From Mariannaea sp. PMI_226 (lineage: Eukaryota > Ascomycota > Sordariomycetes > Hypocreales > Nectriaceae), in NCBI GenBank assembly GCA_024336345.1, contig JANFOG010000011.1, forward strand, positions 1,364,001 through 1,428,000: a stretch of 64,000 nucleotides of DNA, given 5' to 3'. Shown one piece after another: positions 23,142-58,202 of the stretch (positions are counted from its first letter, which is position 1; each line of letters starts with the position of its first letter). The notes beneath the pieces were generated by a model. It saw only the letters and a program-made list of their open reading frames with translations. It made no database searches and had not been told where the DNA came from. Made by a program: the position numbers and the translations under genes.

Positions 23142-24169
23142 TCTGACTTAGTTCGCTGCAGCATTCAATGGTCAACTTTGATAACGTAGAAGATGAGTCC
23201 TGCTTGGCAAGTTTGCTGGCCTTATGTACATGCTACGTAACGACAGTTTGGTTACAGAGGTCGGTCGGAATATACCCCATCTGCCATGGGGTAGCCCCGA
23301 ACAATCACCAATGCACGCCGTCTGATCGGGGAAAAAAATCATGGCGACAAAGTTTGACGGGCTGAGCATCGCGGCAAAATCGAAATTAAAGACCGTTTTT
23401 CCACCAATAAAAGATTCCAGTTGGAAGGGGAATGAGGCGCTTCCGAGTGATCGGTCTAAGATGAGCCCTGTGTTGCATGACTTATCAAGGGTGAGATAAT
23501 CGCGATAGATCGAATAACCTGAATTCCCCAACACTATCGAATTCGTTAGCTGGGACAGATTACTCCGCAGGAAACCTCCGTTTTCGTCTCGCTCATCACT
23601 ACCTTATCTTGCATATTCTGACACACCAATTGAGAAACTAGGCAACCTCTTGCTTGGCTTGGAGGTGGGTTATGCACCAAGTAAAGCACACTGGCAAGAG
23701 CTTTATGGGCGCGTAAAACTGAAGCTTTGTGAGAAACTGCTGATATTATTACAAGTAAGTGAAGAAATAAAGTCACAGCATTATTGTACAACAGGACTTT
23801 GAGTGGTGGATAAGCCTCTGCTCCCCGCGAGTAAGCCGGGGAGGGTCCTTTGCATTTTACCTCTCCACTATGTGCAAAATCACCTTAGGCGCAACGAGAA
23901 AGTTGCCTGAGCAAGCGTGATCAGGGCATCAACTCCTTTCAATCTAAAATTTAGAGAGGTGTTTTGTAATCCGCACTATCGACCTACCGGATGCCGAGTT
24001 CTGTGGCAGCTAAAGATGGCAACAGCTAATGCCTAGTTCACAGATTGTTCAATGCACATAATTCTATGGATTACATGTTTTATTTGGTTTCCAGCTGAAG
24101 TATCATAGCGAAGAATAGACTCCGGATACAGACTAAATTGAACAAAGACGGGGATAACAATTGTCAAGC
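23142..24169. other. promoter region of the monooxygenase and 3' flank of the aldehyde dehydrogenase
   Basis: Contains the cluster motif at 23266-23279. No gene is seen; frames at 23172-23534 and 23546-23791 have no family features. Confidence 0.5.
23266..23279 (+). promoter_or_regulatory. cluster motif CGG-N6-CCCCA (site 1)
   Basis: CGGAATATACCCCA, 125 bases upstream of the FAD monooxygenase start. It is an exact match to the pattern shared by the other cluster promoters. Confidence 0.8.
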
Positions 24170-25713
24170 CTATTCGTCAAATGTAATCACCTTGCTTCTT
24201 AGATACTCTTCGAGACCAGCGATGCCTGTGAACCTCCCCCACCCGCTAGCCTTGGCACCTCCATGGGGCAAGTTGGACTCGTCATGAATGGTCATGGCGT
24301 TGATGTGCACGGCTCCTGTCTCGTAGCCTCGAGCAATTCGCAGACCGGCAGTTAGATCCTTGGTGAACACGGAGCCAGACAAACCGAAGTCAGTATCGTT
24401 TGCAATCTCAAGAGCTTCATCCTCTTTTTCAAACGTGTACACTGCGACACTGGGGCCAAAACTCTCATTCTCATATAGGGCACTGCCCTTTTTCACGTTT
24501 GTGAGAATGATTGGCTTCATGCCAGTCGAAGACTCGTTTGGGTTGAGAGACTCTGTAGGGTCACCCAGAATCACCTCTGCACCACTGTTGATTGCTGCTT
24601 TCACAAGCCTCTTAGTCTTGTTGGCACCGGTGGCGGTCACGAGCAATGGGCTTCGACCCTGTTGTCCATACATTTGCTCGGTGGATTCCTTCAGCGCCAC
24701 AATGAAGTCGTCGACGATTGCGTTGTGAACAATAATGCGTTCTGTGGACATGCAGACTTGGCCAGCGTGCTGGAATGACCCCATTGCACATGCTGCCGCT
24801 GCCTTCTTAATATCTGCGTCCGCGAGGATGATCGCACTAGCCTTGCCACCAAGCTCGGTGATGATGGGCTTCAAGTACTTGCCTGCCATAGCCGCAACAA
24901 TTGATCCCACAGCTGTGCTGCCAGTAAAGTTGATTTTCTTGACTGCTGGATGAGAGATAAGAGCTGTAGTAACGGCCGATGCGTCTTCTGGGCGGTGAAA
25001 CACCAAGTTCAGGGCGCCATCTGGAAGACCAGCTTCTCTGAAGATGCTAACGATGGCATGGTAGCATCGAGGGGAGAGTTCAGGGCCCTTGAGAATGCAG
25101 GTATTTCCTGCAGCAAGAGCATGAGTAATAGCTCGACATCCTAGAGGCCAGGGGGCGTTCCTATGGAAGAGGAGGGAGAACTAGTTAGCATGGAATCAGA
25201 GAAGGGGCTACACGACTTGTTTCATAGTTTAGACACTCACCACGGGGCAATGCCAAGAATGACACCATATGGCTCCTTGGTCACAATGGCACCGCGGCCG
25301 TGATCCTCAGAAGGCGGGAAACCGCCGGCGACTAGGGAGGTCTTACCGGCAACCTCCTTGAGGTTGTCGATAGTCAGACCCAGGATCCATTTGATAAATG
25401 TCGGATCCGCAGCTGTTTCCTCCTTCTGATACGTTACAAGCTCGTCGATGTGCTGTTGAAAGAGCTCAGCTGCTCGGAGGAAGATATCCCGACGAAAGGA
25501 TGGCTTTGTCTTGGACCATGCTGGGAACGCCGCCTCCGCTGCCTCAGCAGCCTTGACGGCTTCTTCTACTGTAGCTCCGCCAGCCTTCCACACCTCTTTG
25601 CCGCTTTCTGGGTTGATGACAGAGAAGATTTGTGAACCGGGGGTATCTTTGCCTCCGATAATTAGTGGCACTATGTTGCCACTAATAATGGACACGGCAC
25701 TAGAAGCAGTCAT
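24170..25713 (-). CDS. NAD(P)-dependent aldehyde dehydrogenase (salicylaldehyde/vanillin dehydrogenase type), 487 aa
   Basis: Two exons: 25713-25241 and 25160-24170; an 80-base intron whose join rebuilds 'LGIAPWNAPWPLGCRA', the conserved aldehyde-dehydrogenase nucleotide-site region. Other marks are 'INFTGSTAVGSIVA' (cofactor loop), 'ITELGGKASAII' (general-base Glu) and 'HAGQVCMSTERI' (catalytic Cys). Near the end are 'ESFGPSVAVYTF', 'YETGAVHINAMT' and 'GGAKASGWGRF'. The length is usual for the family, and the protein is probably cytosolic. The enzyme oxidises an aldehyde to an acid. It is divergent from the alcohol dehydrogenase gene across a 571-base shared promoter, so the two probably convert an aromatic alcohol to the acid together. 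One strongly palindromic cluster motif sits in this shared promoter. Confidence 0.94.
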
Positions 25714-26284
25714 GGTGGTGACAGAATCCTCGTGGAGAAATAATCTTATGGTAGATTTTGATGATATAAAACCTTGTTTTCAGCTGAATTGAATAGACGC
25801 GATAACGAAGTTAAATAATTTGTAAATCTTCTCTTGAGGATATGACCTTATATGTGGGAAATGGGGCTGCCGATCTTGTGCTTAGTTATTATGCCTTCGG
25901 CGCATTGCGGGACGCACACCCACCTGAAGTCGGGCAACGCAACGTAATAATTTGCGGAGAGACTCCCACAACACGGCAATAGGTTCTTTCCCCGCGGTGC
26001 TGTGGTTTGTCTCGTAGTCTATACGCTCGGAATTAACCAGGCAAGCGAATTTTAACTCCATGAGGAGAATCCGACAGAACAAGGCCGTTGCTGGGGGATT
26101 CCCCGGATCACACCGAGCGTTGGTGGTAAAACCCTAGGCTAGCGCTTCAGAGCTTGGGGCTTCTAATATCATGTTGGTGTGCTACCGATGGGTTCTTATA
26201 CACGTTGATATACTAAGACGCGATGCTGGCCAAAACAAAAACTAAATTTGCATCGTAACTTTGGAAAAGCTCATAGACTTAGTC
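25714..26284. promoter_or_regulatory. bidirectional promoter (aldehyde / alcohol dehydrogenase)
   Basis: The 571-base divergent intergenic region has a single cluster motif at 26092-26105, which could serve both genes. No other feature is seen. Confidence 0.6.
26092..26105 (-). promoter_or_regulatory. cluster motif CGG-N6-CCCCA (site 2)
   Basis: Minus-strand CGGGGAATCCCCCA. The core GGGGATTCCCC on the plus strand is a perfect odd-centred palindrome. It lies 180 bases from the alcohol dehydrogenase start and 379 from the aldehyde dehydrogenase start. Confidence 0.8.
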
Positions 26285-27546
26285 ATGCCGCAAACAGCAA
26301 GGGCTCTCGTGGCATCCGCCAAAGATGGCCCCCTACAATTCAAAGATGTTGTCTTGGAATCACCCAGGCCCGATGAGGTTCTTATCGAAGTTCATGCAAG
26401 TGGCATCTGCCATGGTGATATTGCTTGCATTACGGGGAAGATCCCCGTGCCTTTCCCAATCGTCCTAGGCCACGAAGGTACGTCTCACTCTTCATTTGGT
26501 GTTCACAAATGGGGAAGACCCAGACCAGCTTACAGTGCTTCTTTCACAGGTAGTGGCGTAGTGAAGGAAGTGGGTAGTGAGGTACGAGGGATAGAGGCCG
26601 GTGATTCAGTCATTGCAAGCTTTAACGCTTGCAAAAGCTGTGATCTCTGCTTGAGGGGTGTTCCAGCGTATTGCCAGAATTTCTTACCCCTAAACTTTGG
26701 CGGGTCGCGGTTGGACGGCAGCGTCACTATGAGCGCCGCTGGCGATAAAAGGCAGCCGATACAAAGTAACTTCTTTGGACAGAGCACGTTTGCTAGCTTT
26801 GCCATTGTTAATGCTTGCTGTCTCGTCAAGCTGCCAGAGAAGGCCCCTCTCGCGCTGTACGCGCCTTTGGGTTGCGCTATGCTGACTGGAGCTGGAGCTC
26901 TGTTGAACACCCTCAACATGCCTCGAGGAGCATCGGTAGCCGTGTTTGGTACTGGGAGTGTAGGTATGGCTGCCATAATGGCAGCTAAGATACAGGGAAG
27001 CCGAATCATTATAGGTGTTGACATCGACGAGGGACGTCTTGAGATCGCCAAAAGTCTTGGCGCGACGCACATCCTGAAGACATCTGGTCCAGAAGTCGTT
27101 GATCAAATCAAAGCTATTTGCGACGGCGACGGCGTTCAGTACGCCGTGGACTGCACAGGTGTTCCTGTGGTAGTTGAGCGCATGATCAAAGCTCTGGGGA
27201 ATGCTGGCAAAGCTGCCTCCTGTGGAGCTGCTCCGCCGGGAACGAAGGTCTCCGTTGACATCTTTGAGCACATTACCAGAGGCAAGCAATATTTCGGCTG
27301 CAATCTGGGTGACTCCATACCACAACAGGTTCGTTCGGGGCCAGGTGAGGTAGACTGGTGGTTAGGAGGTCTATACTGACAATTTTGTAAAAATAGATCA
27401 TTCCGTTCCTAATCAAACAACATTCCGAGGGAAATTTCCCTTTGGAAAGGATTGTCAAGACCTACAATATCGACGACTGGGAGTTGGCATTGGAAGACAT
27501 GCATTCGGGGACGGTCATAAAACCTGTGCTAGTATGGCGGGAGTAA
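26285..27546 (+). CDS. zinc-dependent aryl-alcohol dehydrogenase (MDR family), 373 aa
   Basis: Three exons: 26285-26477, 26550-27328, 27397-27546; introns of 72 and 68 bases. The ATG at 26285 gives MPQTARALV. Medium-chain zinc dehydrogenase marks are present. The catalytic-zinc Cys is in 'GICHGD', then 'VLGHEGSGVV', and four structural-zinc cysteines in 'CKSCDLCLRGVPAYC'. The Rossmann loop is 'VFGTGSVGMAA' with an acidic NAD-selecting 'GVDID'. The last exon gives 'KTYNIDDWELALEDMHSG', normal for benzyl/aryl-alcohol dehydrogenases. It reversibly oxidises an alcohol to an aldehyde, and paired with the divergent aldehyde dehydrogenase it would carry a hydroxybenzyl alcohol to the acid. It probably shares promoter site 2. 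Confidence 0.93.
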
Positions 27547-28200
27547 TTTAGATGAGAGGGGACTTGATCATGGTGTATGCGAAAGACTTGATGGTCTTTT
27601 CTTCTGTATTAAATTGAATTTGTTCAACATTTGTGCTATGTAGGCTTTGGAAATGGCTTGGACTTTGATATGTTTCACGAAGCACCAGCCGAATGTCCCG
27701 CTCCTGTATGCGCCGACGGAGTCCATGAATTAGTTAGAGTCCGTCCATTCAATGAGCTCACATGAATGGATTTACAATGAGAGACTTCTCATGATCACCA
27801 CCGGCAACAGCGAATTCAACTCTCTGCACCACATATTATCTGGCTCATAGTTTGTCCACTCGTGCCCCCACTAAATCCGATGCCGATATTTCCGTACGCA
27901 GCAACGTACGACACGGGTTTCCTCGTTCAAGCAACGAGCCTCCAAAACCTCAATCTCCAAGTCGGAATTCTCTCCACTTACCCCGCAGTTGCCACAATAC
28001 CACGAAACTTGGAAACAAAAACATTAAAACAGGTCAATGTCCTGAATTGAGCATGACAGAACAGTTGAGTTCAAATAAATTGGTTCTGCATATTACGTAT
28101 TTGAGTTCGAAGTTTCCGACCTATCTCACTGTACCTATATTTCTTGCAATCTCACTGGGCCTTAAACTTTCCGAGTTTCTCAAGCTTCATTTCAACGAAT
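27547..28200. other. promoter region of the aldo-keto reductase
   Basis: Contains a one-mismatch cluster motif at 27963-27976. The frame at 27852-28223 overlaps the start of the reductase in another frame and is not considered a gene. Confidence 0.5.
27963..27976 (+). promoter_or_regulatory. cluster motif, one mismatch (near AKR)
   Basis: CGGAATTCTCTCCA differs from CGG-N6-CCCCA at one base of the C run. It is 225 bases upstream of the aldo-keto reductase start, the spacing seen for the exact sites. Confidence 0.5.
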
Positions 28201-29339: not shown

Positions 29340-30027
29340 CTGAGAGATGTATGAAGACATCTCAAAAACTCTTGCATTCCATAGACTTACGTTGTTCGTA
29401 ATTTAGACAAAGAGATGTGAGCATAGTAATAAAACCTGCACTACGCCCATGTATCACAACAAACCCTGCCAAGTGTCTGATGTAACCAATCACCCAAGTA
29501 ACCATCCGTGGCCACAGCGAACGGTGTAAATCCCTTGGATCTACAACGCAAAGCAGGATCGTCCTTCCAGTGAGTTACTAAAGAGAGCTCAGATCGGATA
29601 CCCTGTATGTACGTAATGCATAGGTTAAACTTACCCCTGGGAGTAATACTATACGATGTTGTGGGGAGTACTCCGATCCCTGTTCACAAACCAAACAAAT
29701 GTCTGAAATACCGACCCGTTTTTCTCGGCGCTGGTAGTATGAGGGCTGGAGTGGACAGGAGACATTCAACCCCATTCACCTCAATTAGATGTTATCGACT
29801 TGTGGATGGATGCGGGGATGCGGGGATACCAACTTGGTCCCTCAAGGTGGAGGGTAACCCGAAGACCACGGGCTAGTCCAGGTTCCGCCATCTCCGAGCT
29901 CGATGATTGTTTTATAGTTGAAGCATTCTCCGTGCCAGTTCACGATGCTCGTTCTTTTCCATTAACCTGACCATTCATTCCTCGTCTCCAGAACTCTCTT
30001 GCAACGCCCCGAGTCACTACTCTTAAA
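29340..30027. other. promoter region of the decarboxylase
   Basis: 688 bases with cluster motif site 3 at 29662-29675. No gene is seen. Confidence 0.5.
29662..29675 (-). promoter_or_regulatory. cluster motif CGG-N6-CCCCA (site 3)
   Basis: Minus-strand CGGAGTACTCCCCA, 353 bases upstream of the 2,3-dihydroxybenzoate-decarboxylase-type gene. Confidence 0.75.
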
Positions 30028-33082: not shown

Positions 33083-33096
33083 CGGGATATTCCCCA
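33083..33096 (+). promoter_or_regulatory. cluster motif CGG-N6-CCCCA (site 4)
   Basis: CGGGATATTCCCCA, 178 bases upstream of the gentisate-dioxygenase-type gene. This exact 14-mer recurs at 37535 and 54564. Confidence 0.85.
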
Positions 33097-34024: not shown

Positions 34025-34038
34025 CGGGGTATTTTCCG
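34025..34038 (-). promoter_or_regulatory. cluster motif, last base differs (site 5)
   Basis: Minus-strand CGGAAAATACCCCG, 237 bases upstream of the SnoaL-like gene. It matches the pattern except for the final A. Confidence 0.6.
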
Positions 34039-34274: not shown

Positions 34275-34787
34275 ATGGGTTACCCTACAGACGAAACGAA
34301 TTGGCCACTGGCAACTCCATCTTCAGTTATCGAACTCCTCGACCTCCTTTTCTCTTTGGTTGACACTAAGTCTGAAACAATCGGGAAGCGTCTTGCTGAA
34401 GAAGTATTCACTCAAGGTGGTATTTTTATGGCCACGAGTGGCAGTTTTCAGGGCCACCTTGGTATGTATTCTCGTTACGAAATCTCAGCAAAGAGTGAAT
34501 TCTAAAAAAGGGAACTAGCTATCGAAACGTGCCGAAAAGGGGTTTGGAATACCGTTCTGTCACGGCGTCATCAAGTCAAAAAAGCTTTCATAAACGATAA
34601 AGATGGAGATGTTCTTGATTTGATCCTGGTTGGTGCTGTAGATGTTGAGAGTGCAGAGACTGGCAAGCACCGACATGAGTTTGTTGTTCGATCTGTGGTT
34701 GTGGGGACCGACTCAGCGACACCCAGAGTCCAACATTACCAAGTCCTGATACCAACACCAAAAACTCCTCAGACAATCTTGGCATAA
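34275..34787 (+). CDS. SnoaL/NTF2-like fold protein, 151 aa
   Basis: Two exons: 34275-34461 and 34519-34787; a 57-base intron whose join gives 'GHLAIETCRKGVWN'. The protein resembles small fungal SnoaL-like proteins: an N-terminal helix region 'VIELLDLLFSLVD', then 'RLAEEVFTQGGIFMATSG', 'RKGVWNTVLSRRHQVKKAF' and alternating beta-strands 'DLILVGAVDV' and 'HEFVVRSVVV'. The fold is a cone-shaped alpha+beta barrel used by isomerases, cyclases and hydratases, or only for binding; the sequence gives no reaction. In aromatic pathways such proteins can assist isomerisation of unstable intermediates. A second SnoaL-like gene in the same cluster (49652) is longer and not a close copy. Confidence 0.8.
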
Positions 34788-35446
34788 GCCACTATCATTA
34801 AGCACTATAAGCCAAAATATACATCATCGTTCATCGATTTCTGTCAAAATCAATGGGCTGCATTGAACAGAGCGCCGTGCGACAAAAATACAAAACACAC
34901 CCAACAATTAGACTCACGGGTAGATTTAATAACAAGTCAAACTGAAACTGAAGATCTATTCTACTTTAATGATCTCGTGAGCCACGGGAAGATGACAACA
35001 TAAACCTTATGGGAATTCCCATACTGTCGTACAGTGAACAGCAAACCAAAATGGCTAGATACACACAAAAATTATGGATTGAGTTATCGCCAATCATCGT
35101 CAACCACGTTGTGTGGAGTTTGTTGCAGAGCGATTCATGGCACTCACACTAAGCGAGTAATTCGCAATCCCACTTGCTCATGTATGGTTGTCATCGTTCC
35201 CGAGCATAAAGGTTCGCCATTCCGGGGCGGTCATGGCTATATTCGGGGAAATCTAATGGTCCGGATGGGGTAGACGCCGGAATAACCCCCACGACAATCC
35301 ATTAGTGGATACCGTCCCATTGATGTGGTAAGTATATCAAGGGAAGAGCAACAGCAGCGATGTGTATGTAGTAGGGCACTTTGCCGCGAGCAAATATTCT
35401 CAGTTCCTTTTTCTTTTTAGGGAAATCAAATTATTCAAAATCGAGA
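34788..35446. other. promoter region of the FAH-family gene
   Basis: 659 bases with cluster motif site 6 at 35278-35291. No gene is seen. Confidence 0.5.
35278..35291 (+). promoter_or_regulatory. cluster motif CGG-N6-CCCCA (site 6)
   Basis: CGGAATAACCCCCA, 156 bases upstream of the FAH-family gene. Confidence 0.8.
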
Positions 35447-36570
35447 ATGAAGGTTGCGTGGGACCGATTGATTCGATTTGTCGCCACAGATGGGCGTGTT
35501 CTCCGCGGTCAGCCCCGTCTCCCTGACCCTGACTACGACCTAGGAACTTTCAAAGAGGATGATAACCTTGAAGCCAACGTCATAGTGGGAAAAGATATCT
35601 TCAGCTTAAACGGTGACACCAAGGTTACCGACGAGATTGTCAAGGTCAAGAAGATAATCGGCCCCTTGACCTCTGACGATGTTCCAGTCCTGAGATGTAT
35701 TGGGTTGAACTATGCAAAGCACAGTGAGTGTGTTGCTTTCTGAGTTCTAAATTATTCCATAGTGGCCGGAATGTCTAACCTCCATTATCTCACAATAGTT
35801 CGGGAGACTGGACGTGAACCTCCACCGTTTCCGTCTTTTTACTTTATGAAACCAAACACGTGCGTGTGGGATCATGGCGTCAATGTGCGGATTCCCAAAA
35901 TCGCTCAGGACGATCAAGCTGACTACGAGGGTGAATTAGTAAGTTTATTAGATTGCTGAAATCCGTTCAATTGTTCTATTGCTACATGTGCTGATGCGAC
36001 TATGAAATGGTAGTGTTTGATTCTCGGCCGGGACGCAAAAGATGTCTCCATCGATGACGCGCTCGACTATGTCGGCGCCTGGACTGTTGGTAATGATATC
36101 TCGTCGCGTAAACTACAGTCACAACCGCACCTGGCCGGCAAGATGCCACAATTCGGCTTCTCCAAGAGCTTCGACACGTATGCACCAATGGGGCCTGTGC
36201 TCATCGCGGGCAATCTTATCGACGATCCCAAAACTCTACACATCACCACCAAGATCGACGGACAGATCCGACAAGACGAGAGTGTGGGAGATTTGTTGTT
36301 TGAATGCCGGTACCTTATTTCATATCTTTCTCAGGGAACTACACTGCAGAAAGGGAGCGTTATCATGACCGGTACACCAGGAGGTACGTTACCAAGTTCC
36401 CATAGTTTACTCACACCTCTACTCATGAGAGCTTGAGATCTCGATACTAATGTTCTGGGACAGGTGTTGGGCACGGGATGAAGCCACCACAGTATCTAAA
36501 GCCAGGCACCGTCATGGAAGTGACCGTGTCTAAGATTGGTACACTAAGAAATGGAGTGGAATTTGAATAA
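35447..36570 (+). CDS. fumarylacetoacetate hydrolase family protein (probable fumaryl-/maleylpyruvate hydrolase), 297 aa
   Basis: Four exons: 35447-35723, 35799-35938, 36014-36383, 36464-36570; introns of 75, 75 and 80 bases. The first join rebuilds 'LNYAKHIRETGREPPPFPSF', a family signature, so an apparent in-frame ATG at 35762 is intronic. Further marks are 'DYEGELCLILGRDAKDV' (metal-binding acids), 'GNDISSRKLQ', 'KSFDTYAPMGPVL', 'QDESVGDLLF' and 'GTPGGVGHGMKPP' near the end. The family hydrolyses C-C bonds of diketo acids with a divalent metal. After a gentisate dioxygenase the expected step is fumarylpyruvate to fumarate plus pyruvate, or maleylpyruvate to maleate plus pyruvate. No maleylpyruvate isomerase is seen in the window. 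Other FAH members are oxaloacetate decarboxylases or acylpyruvases, so the assignment rests partly on context. Confidence 0.92.
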
Positions 36571-37788
36571 TTTATCGGAGCAGGGCATTGGAGCATTGAA
36601 GTTCTTACGCTTGCTTAGAAAATATTTGGAGAACGGATTTTACGATGCAGGGTGTGAGATAAAGGCCGTCGGTTTTGATGGTCTCGTGGTTTGTGCCTTC
36701 TTTCTTAGACTTATAGTTATACACCTCGATTCAACACCCAGCCACGACCCAATCGCAACTGGTTTGGGTCTTTATTTACAGCTAGACTTCCAGACATGTG
36801 AGGCCACAGTGGCCAAGCTGTTCGGCTTCGTAGGCGAAGAGCAAGTCGTTCTAACATCCTCGAAGGTAACTCCCCAAGGCCAACACAGGTGATTCTAGCC
36901 AATCTTTGCCCAATATTTTGAGTCGTGCCTGAGATACTGCCCATACTTGCTCTGAACATAATACGTGCCTACCGAATGGACGTTTCCAGGTTTCCAGACA
37001 TATGCTGTGTCAAACTAAGCTTGTCCATAGGGACTTTTAACAGATACCACGCTGGTAGCTAGCTGCCACCCTTCAATCTAAGTACATAATTAATAACTTG
37101 CCGGTAATCTATAAGTTATGTTCGTTACCCGCGACATTGGGGGGTACTGTCAAGTGCCTTGCAATGGCCTGAGGCTACGCGACGAGCTCGGCGCGAATGA
37201 TGTATACGTTTCACAAGATCAAGAGCTTTGCGTATCAAATAGTCTGCTGTACAATATTACCCTTGAGCTGCAGGGTAAAAGAAGGAACTGTCCGCGCTGG
37301 CAATCAATCTGTTGTTGGCGGCTGCAAGTCGCCTCTACTGGCCGACACCAACTGCTCTGGCTCCAATGCTGAATCTTACTGAAGTGGAAATAAGTGGCTC
37401 AGATGCCGAATCATCTCCGTACTTGTCCAGTTTTACGAGATCTATCTCAATAAGCCACCTAGCCTATCAAATACTATCTTGTGAATTAATTGCAAATCAA
37501 GCTCACGGCGCTCATGAAAAACGGGATGTTTGGGCGGGATATTCCCCAGAAAACGTTAAAGCCGCGCCGTGTCTTTAATCACGGAATTACAATGGAGTTA
37601 ATTCGGATTTTAACTTTAGGTAATGTTCTTGAAGGCATGTAATCATTGTTGTCTATATATGGTAATAATCGTTCGCGATCCTACAAAGAACAAGTACTTT
37701 CCAGCAACACAACGCTCTTCATTGTTGCCAGCACCTCCCTGAGCTTTTTAGGCTACCTTAATTTATCGCATCTCCAAAATCCGTCGAA
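36571..37788. other. promoter region of the SDR gene
   Basis: 1.2 kb with cluster motif site 7 at 37535-37548. Several short frames (36551-36892, 37118-37578) have no family features and are ignored. Confidence 0.45.
37535..37548 (+). promoter_or_regulatory. cluster motif CGG-N6-CCCCA (site 7)
   Basis: CGGGATATTCCCCA, identical to sites 4 and 12, 241 bases upstream of the SDR start. Confidence 0.85.
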
Positions 37789-38902
37789 ATGGGCGACTTT
37801 ATGTCTACACAGAAGCGGGAGCTTCCTCTTCTTGTCAACCCCAAGACCTCTGCAGGTAGAGTTTACATTGTGACGGGCGCTAACGCTGGGCTTGGTTTCG
37901 AAGCCGCTCAGCATCTTGTAGCTGCTCAAGCTGCCAAGGTTATCCTCGCAGTTCGGAACCCCACTCTTGGACAAGAGGCAGCGGCTAAGATTGAAGCCCA
38001 GACGGGTCGGACTGGCGTTGCAGAAGTCTGGCAGCTAGACATGGCGAGCTATGACTCCATCCGTGCCTTTGCGAAGCGAGCTCAGTCTCTCGATCGCATT
38101 GATGGCCTTATTGAAAACGCTGGTGTCATCCTCTTCCAACGTTCGGAGTCCGAGGGCCACCTCACCACCGTGACTGTCAATCTAATTGGTACACTGTTGC
38201 TTGCTATCTTAATGCTCCCAAAGATCAGCACCGAGGCCAAGCGAACTGGAACTACTGCTCATCTCAGTCTTGTCACCAGTGTCGCCGCTTTCCAGAGCGA
38301 TGAAGACTGGAACTTGATCAAAGATGACCCGATTAGGAAAATGGATACCGAGGTTGAACCAATCGTAAAGAAGTACGCTGCTATACTGTATATTCCTCAT
38401 GGCTAACTACTATTGCTAACATATATCTCTTAACTACAGCTATCGCAACACGAAGCTTATCCTGGCGATTGCGGGTCGAATGCTTGCTAAACTTGTGCCC
38501 TTGGACCAATCGAACGTGGTAATCAACCTTGTGTGTCCCGGGTTCTGCTCTACGGACCTCAATAAAAATGCACCACTCGCTATTCGGGAGCGATCCGCCA
38601 AGAGCAAAGCCGAGTATGGTCGGTCACCCGACCATGGCAGTCGCACATTGCTCTATGCTGCTGTTGCCGGCCCAGAAAGTCACGGAAAGCTGACGGCTTC
38701 CTGCGAAATTGCAGAGTGAGAAGACATTCCACTTCCTTGTAGTGCCTGTTCTAACGTGTGTATTCATGATGACAGTGACCAGATACCCAGTTGGATGACT
38801 GACGCCCACGGTCAGGAAACTGCTCAACAGGTTTGGGATATACTTGTCAAAGAATTGGATTCAATCGAACCTGGGGCTGTGAAGGCTGCCTTATCAGTTT
38901 AG
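37789..38902 (+). CDS. short-chain dehydrogenase/reductase, 328 aa
   Basis: Three exons: 37789-38372, 38440-38715, 38776-38902; introns of 67 and 60 bases. SDR marks: cofactor loop 'VTGANAGLGFEAA' (TGxxxGxG), 'LDMASYDSI', 'GLIENAGVI' (NAG motif), 'LSLVTSVAAF' (catalytic Ser region) and 'YRNTKLILA' (YxxxK), which is created by the first splice join. Then 'VVINLVCPGFCSTDL' closes the cofactor site. It belongs to the WW-domain-oxidoreductase/retinol-dehydrogenase-like branch common in fungal metabolic clusters. It moves hydride between NADP(H) and a hydroxyl or carbonyl; the substrate is unknown. Extension beyond 300 residues is normal for this branch. Confidence 0.92.
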
Positions 38903-39539
38903 TTATCACTTTAGATAGACTTTACACAATCAATGTTTGCAAGAATATGATGGAGACATAGTGATTCATCTCATTGACTCTGGTAGATACTCAGGTAGCC
39001 CTTCATTCTAAGTACATCTTGAAAGATGTTCGTCTGAGTTAAATACTGTTAAACCTCAGCCGCCCAAACTTTGTACTGAAGGGCTCCAATTCTACGAGTT
39101 ATTGACTTCCCTGACAGCTTTTCATCATCGTGACCCCATGTATACTCACAAAGGATTTGGCCTTTCCCTCAAGTATCTTGACTCAAGAGTTCGCCATCCA
39201 CCATCGCATGCTGGGTCCTGTTGAACTTTGAGAATCTTCGATGCCACAAGTGATCATTGCCTCACGCCGGTCTTCGGGCAACAGATGCACACCGAGTTTA
39301 AGAGTCTTTAACTCCGCATTGCGACAAAATTGAGGAGAAGTTGCACGGGCTTGCTTAACGCCGGGATCCCCAGCGCTAGAGAGTAAAGCTTCCCCCGCAT
39401 CTTGGGGGGATTTCCGGACTGACCTTGAAAAGTCTATAACCACAGTCAATAAATCTCAAAATCTATTTGAAAAGAAGTTCTCGAACACACAGTGCACTCC
39501 AAAGACTATCCAGTGAATATAATATTTTAACATTTGAAG
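38903..39539. other. promoter region of the second decarboxylase-type gene
   Basis: 637 bases holding cluster motif site 8 at 39403-39416. No gene is seen. Confidence 0.5.
39403..39416 (-). promoter_or_regulatory. cluster motif CGG-N6-CCCCA (site 8)
   Basis: Minus-strand CGGAAATCCCCCCA, 124 bases upstream of the amidohydrolase start at 39540. Confidence 0.75.
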
Positions 39540-41727: not shown

Positions 41728-42397
41728 ATAGCCACACGAATTCTCATAGATAAATTTGCCTGTTGGTAAATGTTACCAAACTAGGACCTTCAGTTCCCTA
41801 CAAGCTGTCTGTGCGATACGTGGGGTTGAGGCGTGTTTGGCCATTGGATCTATCATAACTAGTCTACTCAAAGGTGAGTTGAGAACATGACCTGGCCGGA
41901 TTTCCAGCCTTCCTTCGTCTCCCAGATGAGCCGGTGATTGACGTGAGTGGCCGAGTTTCACGCTAATTTGATCGTGGTGGAAAGCCAAAGTGACAAAATG
42001 CCATTGTTATTTCTCGACAAGGAGCGGTCCGCCGAACTAATCAGTTCGGCGATACCGTTGTGCGAAAGGCCGAACTCCGGGTTGTGGGGCATGCGACAAG
42101 TGACGGCAATATATTAGCACCCTGCGGGGGACAATATCAGGTCCCGCAAGCATCGGATTCTCCCCCACTCCATAACTGATGGGTCATTACCAAACCCTTC
42201 CTATGTGGTTAGTTGGCTCATGTGTCGGGAATGTCCCCAGAGCAGGAATGCATGTCGTACTCCATGCTTCGGTGGCTGGCTAGTGACGCGATGTACATAT
42301 CCTGCTACAAAGACAGTGCTATTATACGTGTCCAGCTTAGAGTTTCACCCTGCCATTGCCACCGCGAGAATAGCAGCACTCAATCTACTGACACACA
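41728..42397. other. promoter region of the alpha/beta hydrolase
   Basis: 670 bases with cluster motif site 10 at 42154-42167. Short frames at 41773-41988 and 42205-42417 are not supported. Confidence 0.5.
42154..42167 (+). promoter_or_regulatory. cluster motif CGG-N6-CCCCA (site 10)
   Basis: CGGATTCTCCCCCA, 231 bases upstream of the alpha/beta hydrolase start. Confidence 0.75.
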
Positions 42398-43240
42398 ATG
42401 TCATCATCTATGATTGAAAACGTTCAGCATACACATCTTTTGGTAGAAAACGAGGGCGCGATTATTAGGACTTGGTCACGGGGGAATGGACCGCTCCTTA
42501 TCCTCATTCCGGGAGGTGGAGGCACTGGCGAATGCTTCAACAAGGCTATGCCTGGTTTGAGCAGGTATTACACCGTGGTCGCTTACGATAGACGAGGGAA
42601 TGGCCAAAGTACCGTCGAAAAACCCCGAGTCCTGAATCCACTGGAATCTGCACGCGATATAGTGGCAATCGTGAAAGCTATGGGGCGTACAAAAGCTTTC
42701 TTGTTTGGCACCAGCAGTGGCGGAATTTTCGCCCTACAAGTAGCACAAAGTTACCCACAATATGTTGATGGTGTTGTACTCCACGAGGTACCCATCGTCA
42801 GCATCTTACCCGAGGAGCACATCAAAAGAGTAGACTCTGGGTACGACGTCTTCCAGACCTATCTTGAAAAGGGAGCAGAAGCTGCCCTACGAGCTTTCAG
42901 AGCTTCAGTGTCGGGGACTCCGGTCGAACCCGCTCCCGCAGACAGACCTACGGATCCCAACGCTCCGCCTCACCGACTGGAGTACTTCTTCAAATACGAA
43001 TTCATCATATTCATGACATACACTCCCAACATGAGTGCCGTTAAAGCCAATGGTGTCCCAGTTGTAACAGTGGAAGGTATAGGAAGTAAGGGAGTGTTTC
43101 ACGCTGTTTCAGCAAAAATACAGTCGGATATACTAGGTTGTCGCCACGTGGTATGGTCGGGTGCACATGCGCCATTCATTGAGGATGCAGAGATATTTGG
43201 TGACGATTTACACAAAACCATTCTGATGTTGCAAACTTAG
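42398..43240 (+). CDS. alpha/beta hydrolase, 280 aa
   Basis: Single exon. The alpha/beta-hydrolase core is clear: oxyanion region 'LILIPGGGGTGECF', then 'VVAYDRRGNGQS', nucleophile elbow 'LFGTSSGGIFALQ' (Ser in GTSSGG), a lid region rich in Pro ('GTPVEPAPADRPTDP'), and a late 'WSGAHAPFIED' supplying the catalytic His. The length is usual for small esterases, lactonases and C-C bond (MhpC-like) hydrolases. The sequence does not separate these. In an aromatic pathway it could hydrolyse an ester or lactone substrate before ring attack, or a ring-cleavage product. Confidence 0.92.
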   Translation: MSSSMIENVQHTHLLVENEGAIIRTWSRGNGPLLILIPGGGGTGECFNKAMPGLSRYYTVVAYDRRGNGQSTVEKPRVLNPLESARDIVAIVKAMGRTKAFLFGTSSGGIFALQVAQSYPQYVDGVVLHEVPIVSILPEEHIKRVDSGYDVFQTYLEKGAEAALRAFRASVSGTPVEPAPADRPTDPNAPPHRLEYFFKYEFIIFMTYTPNMSAVKANGVPVVTVEGIGSKGVFHAVSAKIQSDILGCRHVVWSGAHAPFIEDAEIFGDDLHKTILMLQT

Positions 43241-45638: not shown

Positions 45639-45652
45639 TGGAGATCCCCCCA
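45639..45652 (+). promoter_or_regulatory. cluster motif, one mismatch (MFS carrier)
   Basis: TGGAGATCCCCCCA, off only in the first base, 288 bases upstream of the sugar-type carrier. Confidence 0.5.
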
Positions 45653-46526: not shown

Positions 46527-46540
46527 CGGATTACTCCCCA
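46527..46540 (+). promoter_or_regulatory. cluster motif CGG-N6-CCCCA (site 11)
   Basis: CGGATTACTCCCCA, 257 bases upstream of the transcription factor gene, suggesting autoregulation. Confidence 0.8.
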
Positions 46541-49651: not shown

Positions 49652-50355
49652 CTATGTATTGACCCAGGCCTGATTTCTATCCTCAATCTCCTTCACAGTC
49701 TCAGGCTCGTCGATCCCCGGGAGATCATCTCTGACCGATCCTCCTAGAGTCCCAATATGCCACACTACCGCCTTGTAACTCCTCCGAGCAGCCTCAAGTC
49801 CGGAGAAGTCTAGACTGAGGGGTTTGTTTAGTGGCTGAGGAAGAGAAGGTGTGAGAGTCTCAAACATGTAGAGACATTCTAAACTCAACATCTTCCACAA
49901 GTGTCCTTCTGGGGTGTTGATCTTTTCCAGCTGCGTAAAGAGCCGTACGAAATTTGTCATAACCATGTCCACACCTTGGTATGGATATCGCGCAAAGATT
50001 CGGCCAGTCGATTCAGCTAGAGCCTTTGTCCCGCTCGATCCGAATTGGATGGTGACAGGTGTAATATCATGCATTATTGCAACAGCATCACTAGATAACT
50101 TGCGAGACCCAGCGATGAAGCCGTCAATGCCACCTTTGTGCCTGTTATGATGCGATGATTAGCAGATGAAACAATCTAAATGGTTTTGCGGAAAGTGTGG
50201 ACAGTAACTCGCCATGAAATATTCACAAATGTTTTGCTATCGTCGGGATGATAACATGCGCGCATGTCATCCCATTTTTTACTGTCGCGAAAATGTCTCT
50301 CAGATCGCAGCAGATAGGTGATGTCTGCTCGTTCCAGAGAAGTATTAAAGGACAT
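49652..50355 (-). CDS. SnoaL/NTF2-like fold protein with GC-AG intron, 210 aa
   Basis: Two exons: 50355-50213 and 50141-49652. The 71-base intron begins GCGAGT and ends AACAG, so it is a GC-AG intron; no GT donor keeps the frame. The join gives 'VNISWHKGGIDGFIAGSRKL', which matches the usual SnoaL-like pattern of a conserved Trp followed by a helix. Earlier marks are 'ERADITYLLRSERHFRDSKKW' (shown split: ERADITYLLRSERH then FRDSKKW) and 'MRACYHPDDSKTFVNISW'; later 'VTIQFGSSGTKALAES' and 'WKMLSLECLYMFETLTP'. This is the 'W-D-x-(L/M)-x-x-x-(Y/F)-H-P' form of fungal SnoaL-like proteins, thought to be small enzymes or binding proteins. It may be divergently co-regulated with the P450 through the near-match at 50875. 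The reaction is unknown. Confidence 0.82.
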
Positions 50356-50621
50356 GATGCTAATTCGATGTGTGGTCAGTATCGACTGAAATTGGGGCGG
50401 GGTTTATCGGCAGTTTAGCTTTCAGAGAGAGGTGCTGGATACCTGTTTGAAATCACTTTGAGCTCGGCTATATGCTTTTCAGAAACGTCATTTTATCCCC
50501 ATGGTAAGTCGCAGCTGCGCGGCTTTAACCCCACACTACCCCTCACGCCATTGCACACCTACATACCATGTGAGACTCAAGAAAGAGTCCTACATTGCAA
50601 TAGTTTGCGTAAGAGGCCTTG

Positions 50622-50874: not shown

Positions 50875-50888
50875 CGCGTTTATCCCCA
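50875..50888 (+). promoter_or_regulatory. cluster motif, one mismatch (P450)
   Basis: CGCGTTTATCCCCA differs only in the third base, 141 bases upstream of the P450 start. Confidence 0.5.
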
Positions 50889-51028: not shown

Positions 51029-52870
51029 ATGCTCGCAACTATTGTCCCAGAAGACTTAGAAATTGTTGACCTCCTCGGAGGGCTGATCGGAGGGGTAAAT
51101 ATGTTTCCCATTTCGATATGACGTGCTCCATTTTCTGACGAAATGAGTATCTAGATGTTGGTACTTCTCTCACTTTACGTGGTCTATGTCCTTTACCTCC
51201 ATCCACTTGCCAAGTTTCCCGGGCCTTTGAGATCTGCTGTTTCACCGGTAAGGCTACAAGCGCCAAGCAACATATTGCACCATCGGCTGATCAATGAAAG
51301 GACTGGATGATGAAACGCTGGTCTAATGGCCATTTCGTCTTTACGATTAAAGAGCTGCATGATAAGTACGGTCCAGTGGTAAGGATTGCTGCCAACCAAC
51401 TGTCCTTTTCAAGCGCAACCAGTTGGAAAGACATTTATGGCCACACCCCTGGTCGCAAAGCGTTTCTTAAGGGAACCTTTTACGAACCAATGCCAGGCGA
51501 GGTACGAAATCTCCTAAGCGAATCAGACCCTGCCATTCATTCATCGATGCGACGCAATCTAAGCCATGGATTCTCGGCCACTGCTTTGAAATCGCAAGAA
51601 GACCTCATTCAGAAGTTCATTGACCTTTTTATTTCTCGAATTAATGGGAAGCAATCTCTTGATGAAAAACTGAAAACTGTAGATGCAGTCAAGTGGTTTA
51701 ACTTTCTTACCTTTGACATAATTGGAGAGCTAGCTTTTGGCGATACCTTTGGCAGTCTCAGAGAAGGTACTAAGTCCGCATAATCCATACACTCCAAGAT
51801 CTAGTTATTGACGCTACTAAGGAACCCCTCATTTTTGGATTGAGACTGTTTTCAGTGGGGTGAAAGCCATAACCTTCATTCGTTCCTTTGAATACTTCCC
51901 TCTCCTCCGTTCCCTCTTCCGAAATTTTTACAAATACCAGATTCTGCCGTCTCGTTTGAGCGAGCCTAGACGAAAGATGGTTCAATATGCAACCAATAAG
52001 ATTCAGAAGTATAATTCCACGTCTATCTAAGAGGGCATAGAGTTACTAAATGCTCGAATAGGCGTTTAAATACGGAGCCCGAGCGAATCGACTTCTTAAC
52101 TAAGATGATTGCGAATCGAGAGAAGGACGGCACATCCTTTCGGCAACTCCAGTCGCAAGCAGACATGATGGTTGTTGCTGGAAGTGAAACAACAGCGACG
52201 GCACTTTCAGGAATCACATATTACCTTTGCCACAATAAAAATGTTTATGATAAGGTCGCTGAGGAAGTTCGCTCAAGTTTCAGCCGATATGAAGATATAA
52301 CTGCACAGGCAACTGAATCGCTGCCTTATCTCAAAGCTGTGATTGAGGAGGGTTTGCGCCTGTACCCTCCCGTTCCAATCGGGTTACCACGTGTCAGCCC
52401 GGGTGAGATTGTGGACGGTTATTTCATCCCAAAAGGCACAATTGTTAGTGTTAGCAGTTGGGCATCAACACATAGCGAGCAGAATTTCCATCATCCTTTT
52501 GAATTTATACCAGAAAGATGGCTTGGCAAGGATAAGGAATCTGGAAATCTCCTGTCCGCAAGCCAGCCGTTTTCTATAGGCAGCCGAGGCTGCCTTGGAC
52601 GAAAGTAGGTTTCTGAGATATCTCCCACCTGAACGTCTTGTTTGAAGACACTAACCCGTGACTTTCTTCAGCCTCGCCTATATGGAAATGCGCATCATTC
52701 TATCCAAGATGTTCTGGACTTATGACTTTGAGGCTGTGGATAAATCACTTGATTGGGTTGCATCGAATCGATCCTTTGTCTTCTGGGAAAAACCTGAATT
52801 ACATGTCATTTTTCATCCTCGCTCACAGGATATAGAAAATGCAACTAATTCTAGTCAAAGTTTTCACTAA
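51029..52870 (+). CDS. cytochrome P450 monooxygenase, 517 aa
   Basis: Six exons: 51029-51094, 51155-51247, 51301-51766, 51822-52008, 52062-52604, 52672-52870; introns of 60, 53, 55, 53 and 67 bases. An N-terminal membrane anchor ('LVLLSLYVVYVLYLHPLAKF') and the 'FPGPLRS' hinge are followed by 'HDKYGPVVRI'. Helix I has 'VVAGSETTATAL', the K-helix ExxR is in 'VIEEGLRLYPPVP', 'FIPERWLG' is the PERF-like motif, and the heme loop 'FSIGSRGCLGRN' has the ligand Cys448. The last join (AA|C) is needed to complete the heme loop. The protein is endoplasmic-reticulum bound and needs a P450 reductase. It resembles microsomal fungal P450s of metabolic clusters. After 6-methylsalicylate decarboxylation such an enzyme would be expected to hydroxylate the methyl group of m-cresol, but that substrate is inferred. 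Confidence 0.93.
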
Positions 52871-53277: not shown

Positions 53278-54357
53278 TTAGCGTCGTAGCTCAACGCCAC
53301 GACACCAAACACGTCTAATCGAGCGAGTGGCACAGATATCTTGAATGGGATCTTTCGCGAGAAGTACCAGGTCAGCCCTGCGCCCAGGTTCGATCGCACC
53401 GCGATCCGTCATTTTAAAATACTTAGCAGGTTCGACAGTAGCCGCACGAAGTGCTTCCACATTAGACAGGCCTGCATCGACAAGGAGCTCTAGCTCGCTG
53501 TGAATTCCCTCACCGTGGGGGACTGGCGATTCAGGACCGCTATTCGCGTCTGTGCCCGCGAAGATGGCTACACCGGCAGAATGCAGTGCTGAAACCGAAT
53601 CACGCGCATTAGCATAGGAATAGTCCCGGCCATGGTTCTGGCCAGCTCTGGCTAGGCCCTGCATCATGCGTAGGGTTGGTATCATGACACGGGCGTCAAC
53701 TGCAAACTTGGCGACAGCAGCGTGAGCAAGGGGGGCATCTAATGGTGCATGAGTCAGAAGGTCGATGCCTGCCTCTTGTGCCATGGCATAAGTGGCCGAT
53801 GTCGTGGCATGGGCGACAATGTACCTCCCATGTTTGTGAGCAGCTTTGGTGAGAGCACTGAGAAGCTCGTGGCTCGGCCCGGGTATATCCGCAATCACTT
53901 TGATATAACTTGAGTCGTCTGCTATGCGATCAGCGACAAAACCAACAGCGGCTTGCTCGGTATTCGCCAGAAGTGCTTCCTCAGGCAGTCCAGGAATTCG
54001 ACTATGTCCAGATCCAGGTGTAGTGGCCGGTATCCCAGCAGTCCAAACCTCGGTGAGATGATGATCGAGCGCGTGCTGGCGTATCTCTTGGCGCAAATCT
54101 TGGGGCCAGGAGCCCATGTCAAGAGCCGTTGTAACCCCCCAATGGGCGAACTGTTTGAGGTTCTCTGGACGTCGGCAGTGAACATGGCAATCAATCAAGC
54201 CCGGAAGTAAAATCCCGCCTTGACAATCAATAACAGTAGCGCCCATAGGGTCCGTTCCGATTATGTCTCCGTCGATAATGACCCTATCAGTGCTGGAGAT
54301 GCGGTTTCCGTCGAATACACGCACGTTTATAAGCTCAAATTTTGATTTGTCCACCAT
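53278..54357 (-). CDS. metal-dependent amidohydrolase (imidazolonepropionase/prolidase-like), 359 aa
   Basis: Single exon. The start at 54357 gives MVDKSKFELINVRVFDG; the frame is open slightly upstream but without another ATG. It has the two-part amidohydrolase-1 layout: N- and C-terminal beta-sandwich strands ('LINVRVFDG', 'GAIEPGRRADLVLLAKDP') around a TIM barrel. Metal ligands look complete: 'GLIDCHVHC' (HxH), a Lys in 'SSYIKVIAD', 'RYIVAHATT', 'DLLTHAPLD' and 'IFAGTDANSG' (Asp). At 359 residues it is shorter than many fungal relatives. The class hydrolyses amides, lactones and cyclic imides, and includes mycotoxin-hydrolysing and dipeptidase members. It may release an aromatic acid from an amide or ester conjugate. 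Exact cluster motif site 12 lies 207 bases upstream. Confidence 0.92.
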   Translation of the reverse strand: MVDKSKFELINVRVFDGNRISSTDRVIIDGDIIGTDPMGATVIDCQGGILLPGLIDCHVHCRRPENLKQFAHWGVTTALDMGSWPQDLRQEIRQHALDHHLTEVWTAGIPATTPGSGHSRIPGLPEEALLANTEQAAVGFVADRIADDSSYIKVIADIPGPSHELLSALTKAAHKHGRYIVAHATTSATYAMAQEAGIDLLTHAPLDAPLAHAAVAKFAVDARVMIPTLRMMQGLARAGQNHGRDYSYANARDSVSALHSAGVAIFAGTDANSGPESPVPHGEGIHSELELLVDAGLSNVEALRAATVEPAKYFKMTDRGAIEPGRRADLVLLAKDPIQDICATRSIRRVWCRGVELRR

Positions 54358-55885
54358 AATTGCTGGTATCAAACAACTATTTTTTTCTACAGATTAAGGT
54401 GGAGATGAGGTGGTGACTGGACGGTGGACTGTAACCCATTTCTACAAGAGCTGAATCGGAGTGAGTGGGATAAACAACAGTGTTATAGTTTGGTGGGTAA
54501 ATTGGCACGTCCACAGACGTCTCGAGACTGAATGCGCATGTCAGCCAGATCCACGGGTGACGTCGGGATATTCCCCATTCCATATGCATGTGGAGAAGTA
54601 CAAGTGCTCATTGAAGATTACTGTGCCATGAGATCAATGCCGACCAAGGCGATTTGCTTTTGTATGAGACTTCCGATTCCGGCTTGAATTGGCCTCACAA
54701 ACGCTTGGCCCTGGTAGGTTGCTGGTTATCATTTCGATGCTCACGCACGACGGATAACCGTAAAGGCCAGCCCGACCGTTATGGCTGTGGACTACGGGCA
54801 CGATTTCACCGGCTGGTATGGCAGAATTGGTATTCAGAAGGTGAGGTAGATCCCACGAGATGCTAGTTTGCATGTGTTGTGTGTGCACTCATCATCGTCT
54901 TGAGCGCGCCCACATATAATCCCAACAGGTGCAAGATTGGTGTTAGGCTATGAAAGCGAGTCTTTAGGGTAGCCAGAAACTTGTGTAAGCAGACCAGCAA
55001 GCCGGCTCTATAGTCGGCCCGAGGAAATAGGGGTTATTTCCGTAGGAACATTCCAAGCTAGCGAGCAAGAAAAGACACCTTTACATTGGGAAAAATTCGC
55101 GGTCTACAACTTGTGTATGCAGTGGTATCACGGGCGCCTGACGTATAGAGATACAGTGATAGTATTGATAGAGAATATTGGAGTATCCATATAGCTTATT
55201 TACTAATTGTTATTCCCAAGCGTTCCCTTATTAGTCTCCTTTCTGTTGAACGGGCAACGGGCTTTTCCTCTAGGGTGGGCTCCACCCGACACTTGTGCGT
55301 TCAACAACTTGAACCTCGTCATCTTTTCAAGCCGAAATCTTTTTTGTATCTAACCACCTTCCATCGGTGGAAAAAATGAGTGTGGCCTCCATGAAATTCA
55401 ACCCGGTCTTTCAAACAACTAAGGAAAACCTGTTTTCGCGGTAACTTGACTGTGCATGATAGATCTGAGTTATATGAATCCGTCGTCGGAGAGCGCATCA
55501 AATAGGGGCTACAACCCACTCCTTAATATACGGTTAGAGGGAGGGAGTAGACCATAATGAATCTATGGCATTCCCTAGCGCACTCCTATCATCAGAATCC
55601 TATTTATCATATTACGTATCGCACATTAATTAATGCCATGGTTTGTTACATTAGTGACTATTAAATCAATGCAACATCGTGATTTTACTTGGATAGCTCT
55701 AAAACTTGTATGCATGTACCAATCCGAACAAGAGAATCATCGCTTGACAGACAGTTCATCATGACATACTCACGGTAATAGCTAGAACATGAGCTAATAG
55801 TATTTCCATAGCATTTAGACTTCTCTTTTGCGTAAAATTCCTATACTCTTTTTTACGCAACTATCTCAACAAGGGTCATCAAATT
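54358..55885. other. promoter region and gene-free stretch
   Basis: 1.5 kb with cluster motif site 12 at 54564-54577 near the amidohydrolase; the remainder, towards the 3' end of the MFS gene, is AT-rich and empty. Short overlapping frames are ignored. Confidence 0.45.
54564..54577 (+). promoter_or_regulatory. cluster motif CGG-N6-CCCCA (site 12)
   Basis: CGGGATATTCCCCA, third identical copy, 207 bases upstream of the amidohydrolase start. Confidence 0.85.
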
Positions 55886-57913: not shown

Positions 57914-58110
57914 TTTGGCGTTGTTTATGGTTTTGAGTCAAGTTAGGCACTTGGTAGTTGTGATTTAGAAAATTCCATTTCATGTACACTATTTTTATAT
58001 TTGGCTTCTGGACGTGAACAAAAACCCTAGCAAGTCGTGGAGTCGTTGGGGAACGTTTGTGGGGAAGATGTGGGGGATGGGGTCAAGGCCGGGGAAAGCG
58101 AGATTCCCCG

Positions 58111-58124
58111 TGGGGTCTATCCCG
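58111..58124 (-). promoter_or_regulatory. cluster motif CGG-N6-CCCCA (site 13)
   Basis: Minus-strand CGGGATAGACCCCA, 198 bases upstream of the MFS start. Confidence 0.8.
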
Positions 58125-58188
58125 GAAGCTATTCCCAATGCTTTGAGTTGTTCCGAAAATGATGTGAGGTGAGTTGAACCCATTTGAG

Positions 58189-58202
58189 TGGGGATGTATC
58201 CG
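58189..58202 (-). promoter_or_regulatory. cluster motif CGG-N6-CCCCA (site 14)
   Basis: Minus-strand CGGATACATCCCCA, 276 bases from the MFS start and 417 from the dienelactone hydrolase start. Confidence 0.8.

Follow-up and report, generated by a model that had tools for sequence, protein, structure and literature searches.

Here we analyse a 64,000-nucleotide window of the Mariannaea sp. PMI_226 genome (C3:1364001-1428000 of 42.2 Mb; positions below are counted from the first letter of this whole stretch) and describe a 14-base-pair (bp) promoter element, CGG-N6-CCCCA, together with the gene cluster that it marks. The cluster comprises 19 predicted genes at approximately 21.5-59.5 kb of the window (C3:1385525-1423472, 38 kb), and our gene models match both the gene number and the extent previously proposed from the letters alone, which we refer to as the sequence-only reading. 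Genes were called ab initio, the finder having been trained on the window plus 139 kb of flanking sequence, and weak genes were forced or set by hand; left to itself, the finder merged the second amidohydrolase and the nitroreductase into one gene, made the regulator and the cytochrome P450 too short and missed the SnoaL-like gene. Domains were assigned with Pfam on exon-sized open reading frames and on three joined models. The predicted genes are as follows:

21525..23141, minus strand: FAD (flavin adenine dinucleotide)-dependent monooxygenase; weak PDB matches to CtdE, MAK1-like and decarboxylative vanillate hydroxylases
24170..25713, minus strand: aldehyde dehydrogenase (ALDH); PF00171
26285..27379, plus strand: zinc alcohol dehydrogenase (ADH); PF00107/PF08240
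28201..29339, plus strand: aldo/keto reductase (AKR); PF00248
30028..31095, plus strand: amidohydrolase resembling gamma-resorcylate and 2,3-dihydroxybenzoate decarboxylases; PF04909
31776..32905, minus strand: gentisate 1,2-dioxygenase (cupin); TIGR02272 at 7e-40 on one open reading frame
34275..34787, plus strand: small two-exon gene; forced model, no Pfam match
35447..36570, plus strand: fumarylacetoacetate-hydrolase (FAH) family; PF01557, 3.6e-33
37789..38902, plus strand: short-chain dehydrogenase (SDR); PF00106
39540..40581, plus strand: second amidohydrolase_2, decarboxylase-like; PF04909, split by hand from the next gene
41050..41727, plus strand: nitroreductase family; PF00881, the sole upstream ATG in the frame region chosen by hand as start
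42398..43240, plus strand: alpha/beta hydrolase (ABH); PF00561
43723..45351, minus strand: sugar-transporter-family permease (MFS1); PF00083
46797..49537, plus strand: candidate regulator with two C2H2 fingers, Zn2Cys6 and Fungal_trans; Pfam, model joined by hand
49652..50355, minus strand: SnoaL-like protein; PF13577, 4.9e-7, forced model
51029..52870, plus strand: cytochrome P450; PF00067, forced model
53278..54357, minus strand: amidohydrolase_1; PF01979
56306..57913, minus strand: MFS transporter (MFS2); PF07690
58619..59472, plus strand: dienelactone-hydrolase (DLH) family; PF01738, start moved by hand from 58790 to 58619

Judged by its predicted products, the cluster probably breaks down aromatic acids, and the gene set reads as one for gentisate-type catabolism, in which an aromatic acid would be funnelled to gentisate ahead of ring opening. 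A gentisate 1,2-dioxygenase, an FAH-family hydrolase and a monooxygenase occur together, the last recognised by weak PDB matches alone, with no Pfam match on the one open reading frame scanned. The dioxygenase scored 136.9 bits against TIGR02272 on a single open reading frame, the full-length cut-off being 442.1. For the first amidohydrolase the nearest solved structure is gamma-resorcylate decarboxylase (PDB 2dvt, 5e-89), and among 120 of its 6197 relatives identity reaches 85%, the named Aspergillus and Penicillium proteins lying at 68-74%; species with such relatives include Aspergillus germanicus, A. nanangensis and Penicillium manginii. No maleylpyruvate isomerase domain was found in the 23 open reading frames and models scanned with Pfam, which represent part of the exons; gentisate clusters lacking this enzyme are described as 'gentisate-like' (PMC7842363). 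The cluster ends 44 kb short of the contig end, GC content being 0.43 from there to the contig end compared with 0.48, and no run of three telomere repeats is present in the last 9.4 kb of the contig.

Exact matches to CGG-N6-CCCCA number 19 in the window, 18 of them within 23266-58202. All 13 copies listed by the sequence-only reading lie where it had placed them, and a further five (32358, 35266, 42226, 50520 and 58078) were found here; one copy (32358) is intragenic, inside the dioxygenase coding region, and the remaining 17 are intergenic. Its statement that three copies share an identical 14-mer is also borne out (33083, 37535 and 54564). The one-mismatch copies that it had noted at 27963, 34025, 45639 and 50875 are present, although each is weak alone, since allowing up to one mismatch gives 51 matches in the window where 35.6 are expected by chance. 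The intergenic copies and one-mismatch candidates are as follows:

23266..23279, plus strand: operator copy CGGAATATACCCCA, exact; FAD monooxygenase promoter, 132 bp from the ATG
26092..26105, minus strand: operator copy CGGGGAATCCCCCA, exact; divergent ALDH/ADH promoter
27963..27976, plus strand: weak operator candidate, one mismatch; AKR promoter
29662..29675, minus strand: operator copy CGGAGTACTCCCCA, exact; promoter of the gamma-resorcylate-decarboxylase-like amidohydrolase
33083..33096, plus strand: operator copy CGGGATATTCCCCA, exact; gentisate dioxygenase promoter
34025..34038, minus strand: weak operator candidate CGGAAAATACCCCG, one mismatch; promoter of the small gene at 34275
35266..35279, minus strand: operator copy CGGCGTCTACCCCA, exact; FAH promoter
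35278..35291, plus strand: operator copy CGGAATAACCCCCA, exact; FAH promoter
37535..37548, plus strand: operator copy CGGGATATTCCCCA, exact; SDR promoter
39403..39416, minus strand: operator copy CGGAAATCCCCCCA, exact; second amidohydrolase_2 promoter
40851..40864, plus strand: operator copy CGGAATTCCCCCCA, exact; nitroreductase promoter
42154..42167, plus strand: operator copy CGGATTCTCCCCCA, exact; ABH promoter
42226..42239, plus strand: operator copy CGGGAATGTCCCCA, exact; ABH promoter, second copy
45639..45652, plus strand: weak operator candidate TGGAGATCCCCCCA, one mismatch; sugar-transporter (MFS1) promoter
46527..46540, plus strand: operator copy CGGATTACTCCCCA, exact; the regulator's own promoter, 263 bp from the ATG
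50520..50533, plus strand: operator copy CGGCTTTAACCCCA, exact; divergent SnoaL/P450 promoter
50875..50888, plus strand: weak operator candidate CGCGTTTATCCCCA, one mismatch; P450 side of the divergent promoter
54564..54577, plus strand: operator copy CGGGATATTCCCCA, exact; amidohydrolase_1 promoter
58078..58091, minus strand: operator copy CGGCCTTGACCCCA, exact; MFS2/DLH promoter
58111..58124, minus strand: operator copy CGGGATAGACCCCA, exact; MFS2/DLH promoter
58189..58202, minus strand: operator copy CGGATACATCCCCA, exact; MFS2/DLH promoter

Within this set, the two opposed exact copies at 35266-35291 share two bases, so that their CGG ends meet in CCGG, and the densest group of the cluster places three exact copies in 125 bases (58078-58202). 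Between the copy at 50520 and the P450 start, the divergent SnoaL/P450 promoter also contains roughly 70 bases of (CAA)n repeat (50620-50700).

The concentration of the element in the cluster is far above expectation. Over 100 dinucleotide shuffles of the window the mean number of matches was 1.48 (standard deviation 1.13, maximum 4), and at the rate seen in the genome outside the cluster 0.85 copies would be expected in the 38 kb that hold 18 (Poisson 3e-18). Across the whole genome, by comparison, the element is not enriched, with 956 matches against 1018 for a reversed-pattern control, and the first 100 of these 956, all on C1, show by eye no more than five in any 36 kb. To compare promoters, we drew 16 regions from the cluster (10,988 bases), after the sites were known, and 33 control promoters (22,954 bases), having excluded genes that scored below 15 with the finder and any control promoter not longer than 150 bases. 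An exact copy is present in 13 of the 16 cluster regions and in none of the 33 controls; the 165-kb flank holds two exact copies somewhere within it. The excess over the rest of the genome that the sequence-only reading had anticipated is thus present, with 18 copies in 38 kb, a genome-wide count at background and no copy in the control promoters. A search of 3+5 dyads with gaps of 0-15, which met 286,402 distinct words and scored those present in at least six promoters, gave CGG-N6-CCCCA the smallest Fisher P (2e-9), so that a de novo search likewise puts this element on top. Among 3+4 dyads CGG-N6-CCCC ranks first (14/16 versus 1/33), the fourteenth promoter being that of the copy at 34025, whose last base is off.

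The arrangement of the copies relative to genes was largely, although not entirely, as earlier described. The centres of the 17 intergenic copies lie 130-359 bp from the nearest predicted start (the sequence-only reading gave about 120-420 bases); measured to the far-side gene of shared regions, the distances are 386 bp for ALDH, 502 bp for P450 and 423-534 bp for DLH. The claim of a single copy per promoter is incorrect, there being two exact copies in the FAH promoter, two in the ABH promoter and three in the MFS2/DLH region. Copies do occur in both orientations, in single as well as divergent promoters, and the four convergent gaps (31096-31775, 43241-43722, 49538-49651 and 52871-53277) contain neither exact nor one-mismatch copies, both as had been claimed.

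What distinguishes the cluster is the combination of the two halves at one fixed spacing. The N6 arrangement occurs 18 times in the cluster and twice in the flank, while no other gap from 0 to 20 exceeds four copies in the cluster or is enriched, and each half alone is at background (cluster versus flank, CGG 1.12x and CCCCA 1.13x). The symmetric word CGG-N6-CCG is not enriched (10 in the cluster, 46 in the flank, 0.95x), and other arrangements of the two halves were rejected for want of enrichment in the cluster relative to the flank. CGG-N6-CCCC[CGT] occurs only three times in the cluster; CCG-N7-CCCCA occurs seven times there and twice in the flank, which we think is the shadow of seven sites that begin CCGG. 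Position 6 of the intergenic copies is T (13 of 17) or A (4 of 17), position 9 is never G, and no column in the eight bases on either side exceeds 0.5 bit.

A refined pattern, CGGRNWWNHCCCCA, defined post hoc from the cluster sites, has 97 matches in the genome, 12 in the cluster and 85 scattered, compared with 67 for its reversed control; this excess of scattered matches is at best marginal (P 0.02, uncorrected, with 67 taken as exact), and we rejected an unlinked regulon outside the cluster as unconvincing. A fourth identical CGGGATATTCCCCA lies far from the cluster at C10:403279 (L030:1780), flanked by a cyclase-like frame on one side and a different open frame on the other, with no clear gene start alongside among open frames of at least 90 residues in the 3.7 kb inspected.

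The regulator encoded at 46797 is a protein of about 772 residues with a Zn2Cys6 cluster (Zn_clus, 23.3 bits, cut-off 21) and a Fungal_trans domain (65.3 bits, cut-off 23). Ahead of the zinc cluster lie CSYCQASFRRDEHLQRHIRIH and CPCKMTFARNDVFIRHMRIC, which we read as two fingers with the helices RDEHLQR (finger 1, E-value 7e-4, under the Pfam cut-off) and RNDVFIR (finger 2, recognised by eye), followed by a linker of approximately 24 residues to the zinc cluster. This layout suggests a fused C2H2-Zn2Cys6 factor of the Cmr1/Pig1 architecture as opposed to a plain Zn2Cys6 protein. A search of its own genome gave 28 matches, three of which are the regulator gene; seven of the other 25 were inspected and four of these (L023, L024, L026 and L028) have the same layout, with fingers that are canonical by eye, and more fused genes may be present among the uninspected matches. 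All five fused factors carry R, H and R at helix positions -1, 3 and 6 of finger 1, and R, D, L/V and R at positions -1, 2, 3 and 6 of finger 2. The same contact residues are found in P0001, a distant Mycena protein of identical layout that was obtained from a whole-protein search otherwise swamped by C2H2 proteins. No refined-motif match lies within 30 kb of the four paralogues (nearest about 31 kb), which fits each having its own spacing or zinc-cluster specificity. Another finger pair of the Adr1 type (RLEHLKR/RRDLLLR) is encoded separately at L025 (C4:237553-237750), where the 501 bases inspected contain no zinc cluster. In other fungi, relatives of the regulator at 41-43% identity include Exophiala aquamarina A1O9_12254, Phialocephala subalpina PAC_03501 and one unnamed protein, and another unnamed relative shows 22% identity; in the three relatives inspected the finger exons are absent or cut, PAC_03501 retaining ADVFLRH before the zinc cluster. 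Two scans of viral contigs for orthologous DNA gave no match.

The fingers offer a link between the regulator and the element. Yeast Adr1 shares the helix-contact pattern of the regulator's fingers; its sequence aligns end to end with PDB 2adr (60 positions, 133.7 bits). Under the zinc-finger code, finger 1 would presumably read GGG and finger 2 G-T-G, and the resulting prediction, GTGGGG, contains TGGGG, the invariant operator half on the other strand. The Adr1 site is given as TTGGRG (PMC3897899), and CGG as the usual target of Zn2Cys6 clusters (PMC8929692).

Our preferred interpretation, to which we assign a probability of roughly 0.62, is that the 14-mer serves the regulator encoded in the cluster as a composite operator and labels a regulon for aromatic catabolism whose genes, that of the regulator included, would be switched together. 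Read on the other strand as TGGGG-N6-CCG, the operator would be recognised by the two zinc domains of one polypeptide: CGG by a Gal4-type Zn2Cys6 cluster, and TGGGG by an Adr1-kind C2H2 pair, whose finger 1 would contact the GGG beside the spacer and finger 2 the NTG farthest from it. The linker of about 24 residues would fix the 6-bp gap. We infer that binding would presumably follow induction by an aromatic compound of the pathway and activate divergent and tandem promoters alike, and the regulator is likely to be autoregulated because its own promoter holds a copy (46527). A fused regulator would account for the asymmetry of the operator, and a single two-domain polypeptide would explain why the second half is not CGG, unlike the site of a plain zinc-cluster dimer, why this half exceeds the first in length and constancy, and why neither half alone rises above background while the gap between them never varies. 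The proposal of the sequence-only reading, a pathway-specific operator for a 19-gene cluster, is supported as the best available reading.

Several observations weigh against a composite operator of this kind. The assignment of fingers to bases is post hoc, made with the motif already known, and the Pfam scores of the fingers do not reach the cut-offs (zf-C2H2 20.3, cut-off 25.2; zf-H2C2_2 24.2, cut-off 40), finger 2 being non-canonical (C-x-C...H-x3-C). The base that follows CCCCA is C in only eight of the 17 copies, so that the outermost predicted base, the G before TGGGG, is unspecified. The spacer is partly dyad-symmetric (position 4 A/G in 14/17, position 6 T in 13/17, position 7 A in 9/17), which would also suit a Zn2Cys6 dimer with one altered half. 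Position 4 is C in the other three copies (35266, 50520 and 58078), which may be weak or chance sites, and that at 50520 is the sole exact copy of its promoter. Furthermore, three of the 16 promoters (AKR, the small gene at 34275 and MFS1) offer one-mismatch candidates only, and the gene starts are predictions from models that are ab initio and in part hand-set.

Among alternative explanations, an ordinary Zn2Cys6 homodimer that leaves the C2H2 fingers unused, and binds CGG together with a diverged CCC half in the manner of factors for CGG-N6-CCG, appears unlikely. Sites of the Zn2Cys6 family typically combine a CGG half with N6 spacing, and the partly symmetric spacer agrees with such a dimer; however, CGG-N6-CCG itself stands at 0.95x, it is the right half that has more bases and varies less, with CGG-N6-CCCC[CGT] so rare in the cluster, and CCCCA is left unexplained by a zinc cluster alone. 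We regard as quite improbable an arrangement in which two proteins sit side by side, a pathway factor beside a C2H2 factor of general function (CreA/Mig1, for example, or the Adr1 relative at C4:237553). The latter is a separately encoded Adr1-like finger pair, TGGGG suits the described sites of both Mig1 (SYGGGG) and Adr1 (TTGGRG) (PMC3897899), and a precedent has been proposed for GipA and GliZ at gliA (PMC4006717), yet the coupling of CCCCA, alone at 1.13x, to CGG at exactly N6 is tight for independent proteins, and the cluster's own factor already has both domain types. That the element is bound by a factor encoded elsewhere, the protein at 46797 having some other target, is very improbable: sites crowd together only in the cluster that encodes the regulator, with one of them in the regulator's promoter, even if the 85 refined matches outside exceed the 67 of the control. 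Chance, or a repeat or mobile element carrying the word into promoters, can be virtually discounted despite the three identical 14-mers, given the Poisson value of the local count and flanks no more alike than random pieces (mean identity 0.253 over 131 pairs versus 0.251 over 2000), on which a repeat or mobile-element origin was rejected. An NF-kB-like (velvet) character of the element was also considered and set aside for lack of evidence.

Taking the composite operator as the preferred interpretation, we tentatively extend it, at somewhat less than even odds, to the fused C2H2-Zn2Cys6 class including Cmr1/Pig1, whose members would be bipartite readers in which the fingers recognise NTGGGG and the zinc cluster CGG, with a spacing set by the linker that would provide each paralogue with an operator of its own. 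Searches for the operators of fungal cluster regulators usually look for CGG dyads. If the extension to the class is true, the window shows the first full set of sites for such factors and would yield a site-prediction rule for this class of fungal regulator, making regulons readable from sequence. With 17 naturally occurring copies of an asymmetric operator next to a regulator that has two unrelated zinc domains, the proposed division of labour is open to direct testing.

Cluster-specific operators are already known, as are fused C2H2-Zn2Cys6 factors (Cmr1/Pig1), and no binding site for a fused factor was found in the titles, abstracts and some passages of the literature searched. The melanin regulators Cmr1 and Pig1 resemble the factor at 46797 in its apparent N-terminal domain order and its C-terminal Fungal_trans domain, but are described as controlling dihydroxynaphthalene (DHN)-melanin genes, whereas the present factor sits in an aromatic-catabolic cluster, and no binding site is stated in the passages on them (PMC10789848). 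Yeast Adr1 has the same finger-contact residues, and TGGGG fits its site TTGGRG. Its DNA-binding domain is described as two C2H2 fingers and an accessory region (PMC2527678), to which the factor at 46797 adds a Zn2Cys6 cluster, and TTGGRG is reported paired with an inverted copy at N6-38 (PMC2536678), whereas here the pairing is with CGG. Gtf1 of Candida parapsilosis is likewise a cluster-encoded regulator of a gentisate pathway cluster with a shared promoter motif; Gtf1 is described as a Gal4-like Zn2Cys6 factor, however, and its site, GGAN7TCC, is unlike the present motif (PMC8929692). In the account of GipA and GliZ at the Aspergillus fumigatus gliA promoter, the C2H2 site overlaps one of CGG type, and the two are interdependent (PMC4006717). 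There the two sites belong to two proteins, with the overlap described at gliA (and gliZ), whereas here a single polypeptide has both kinds of domain, and the arrangement is found in 13 of 16 promoters.

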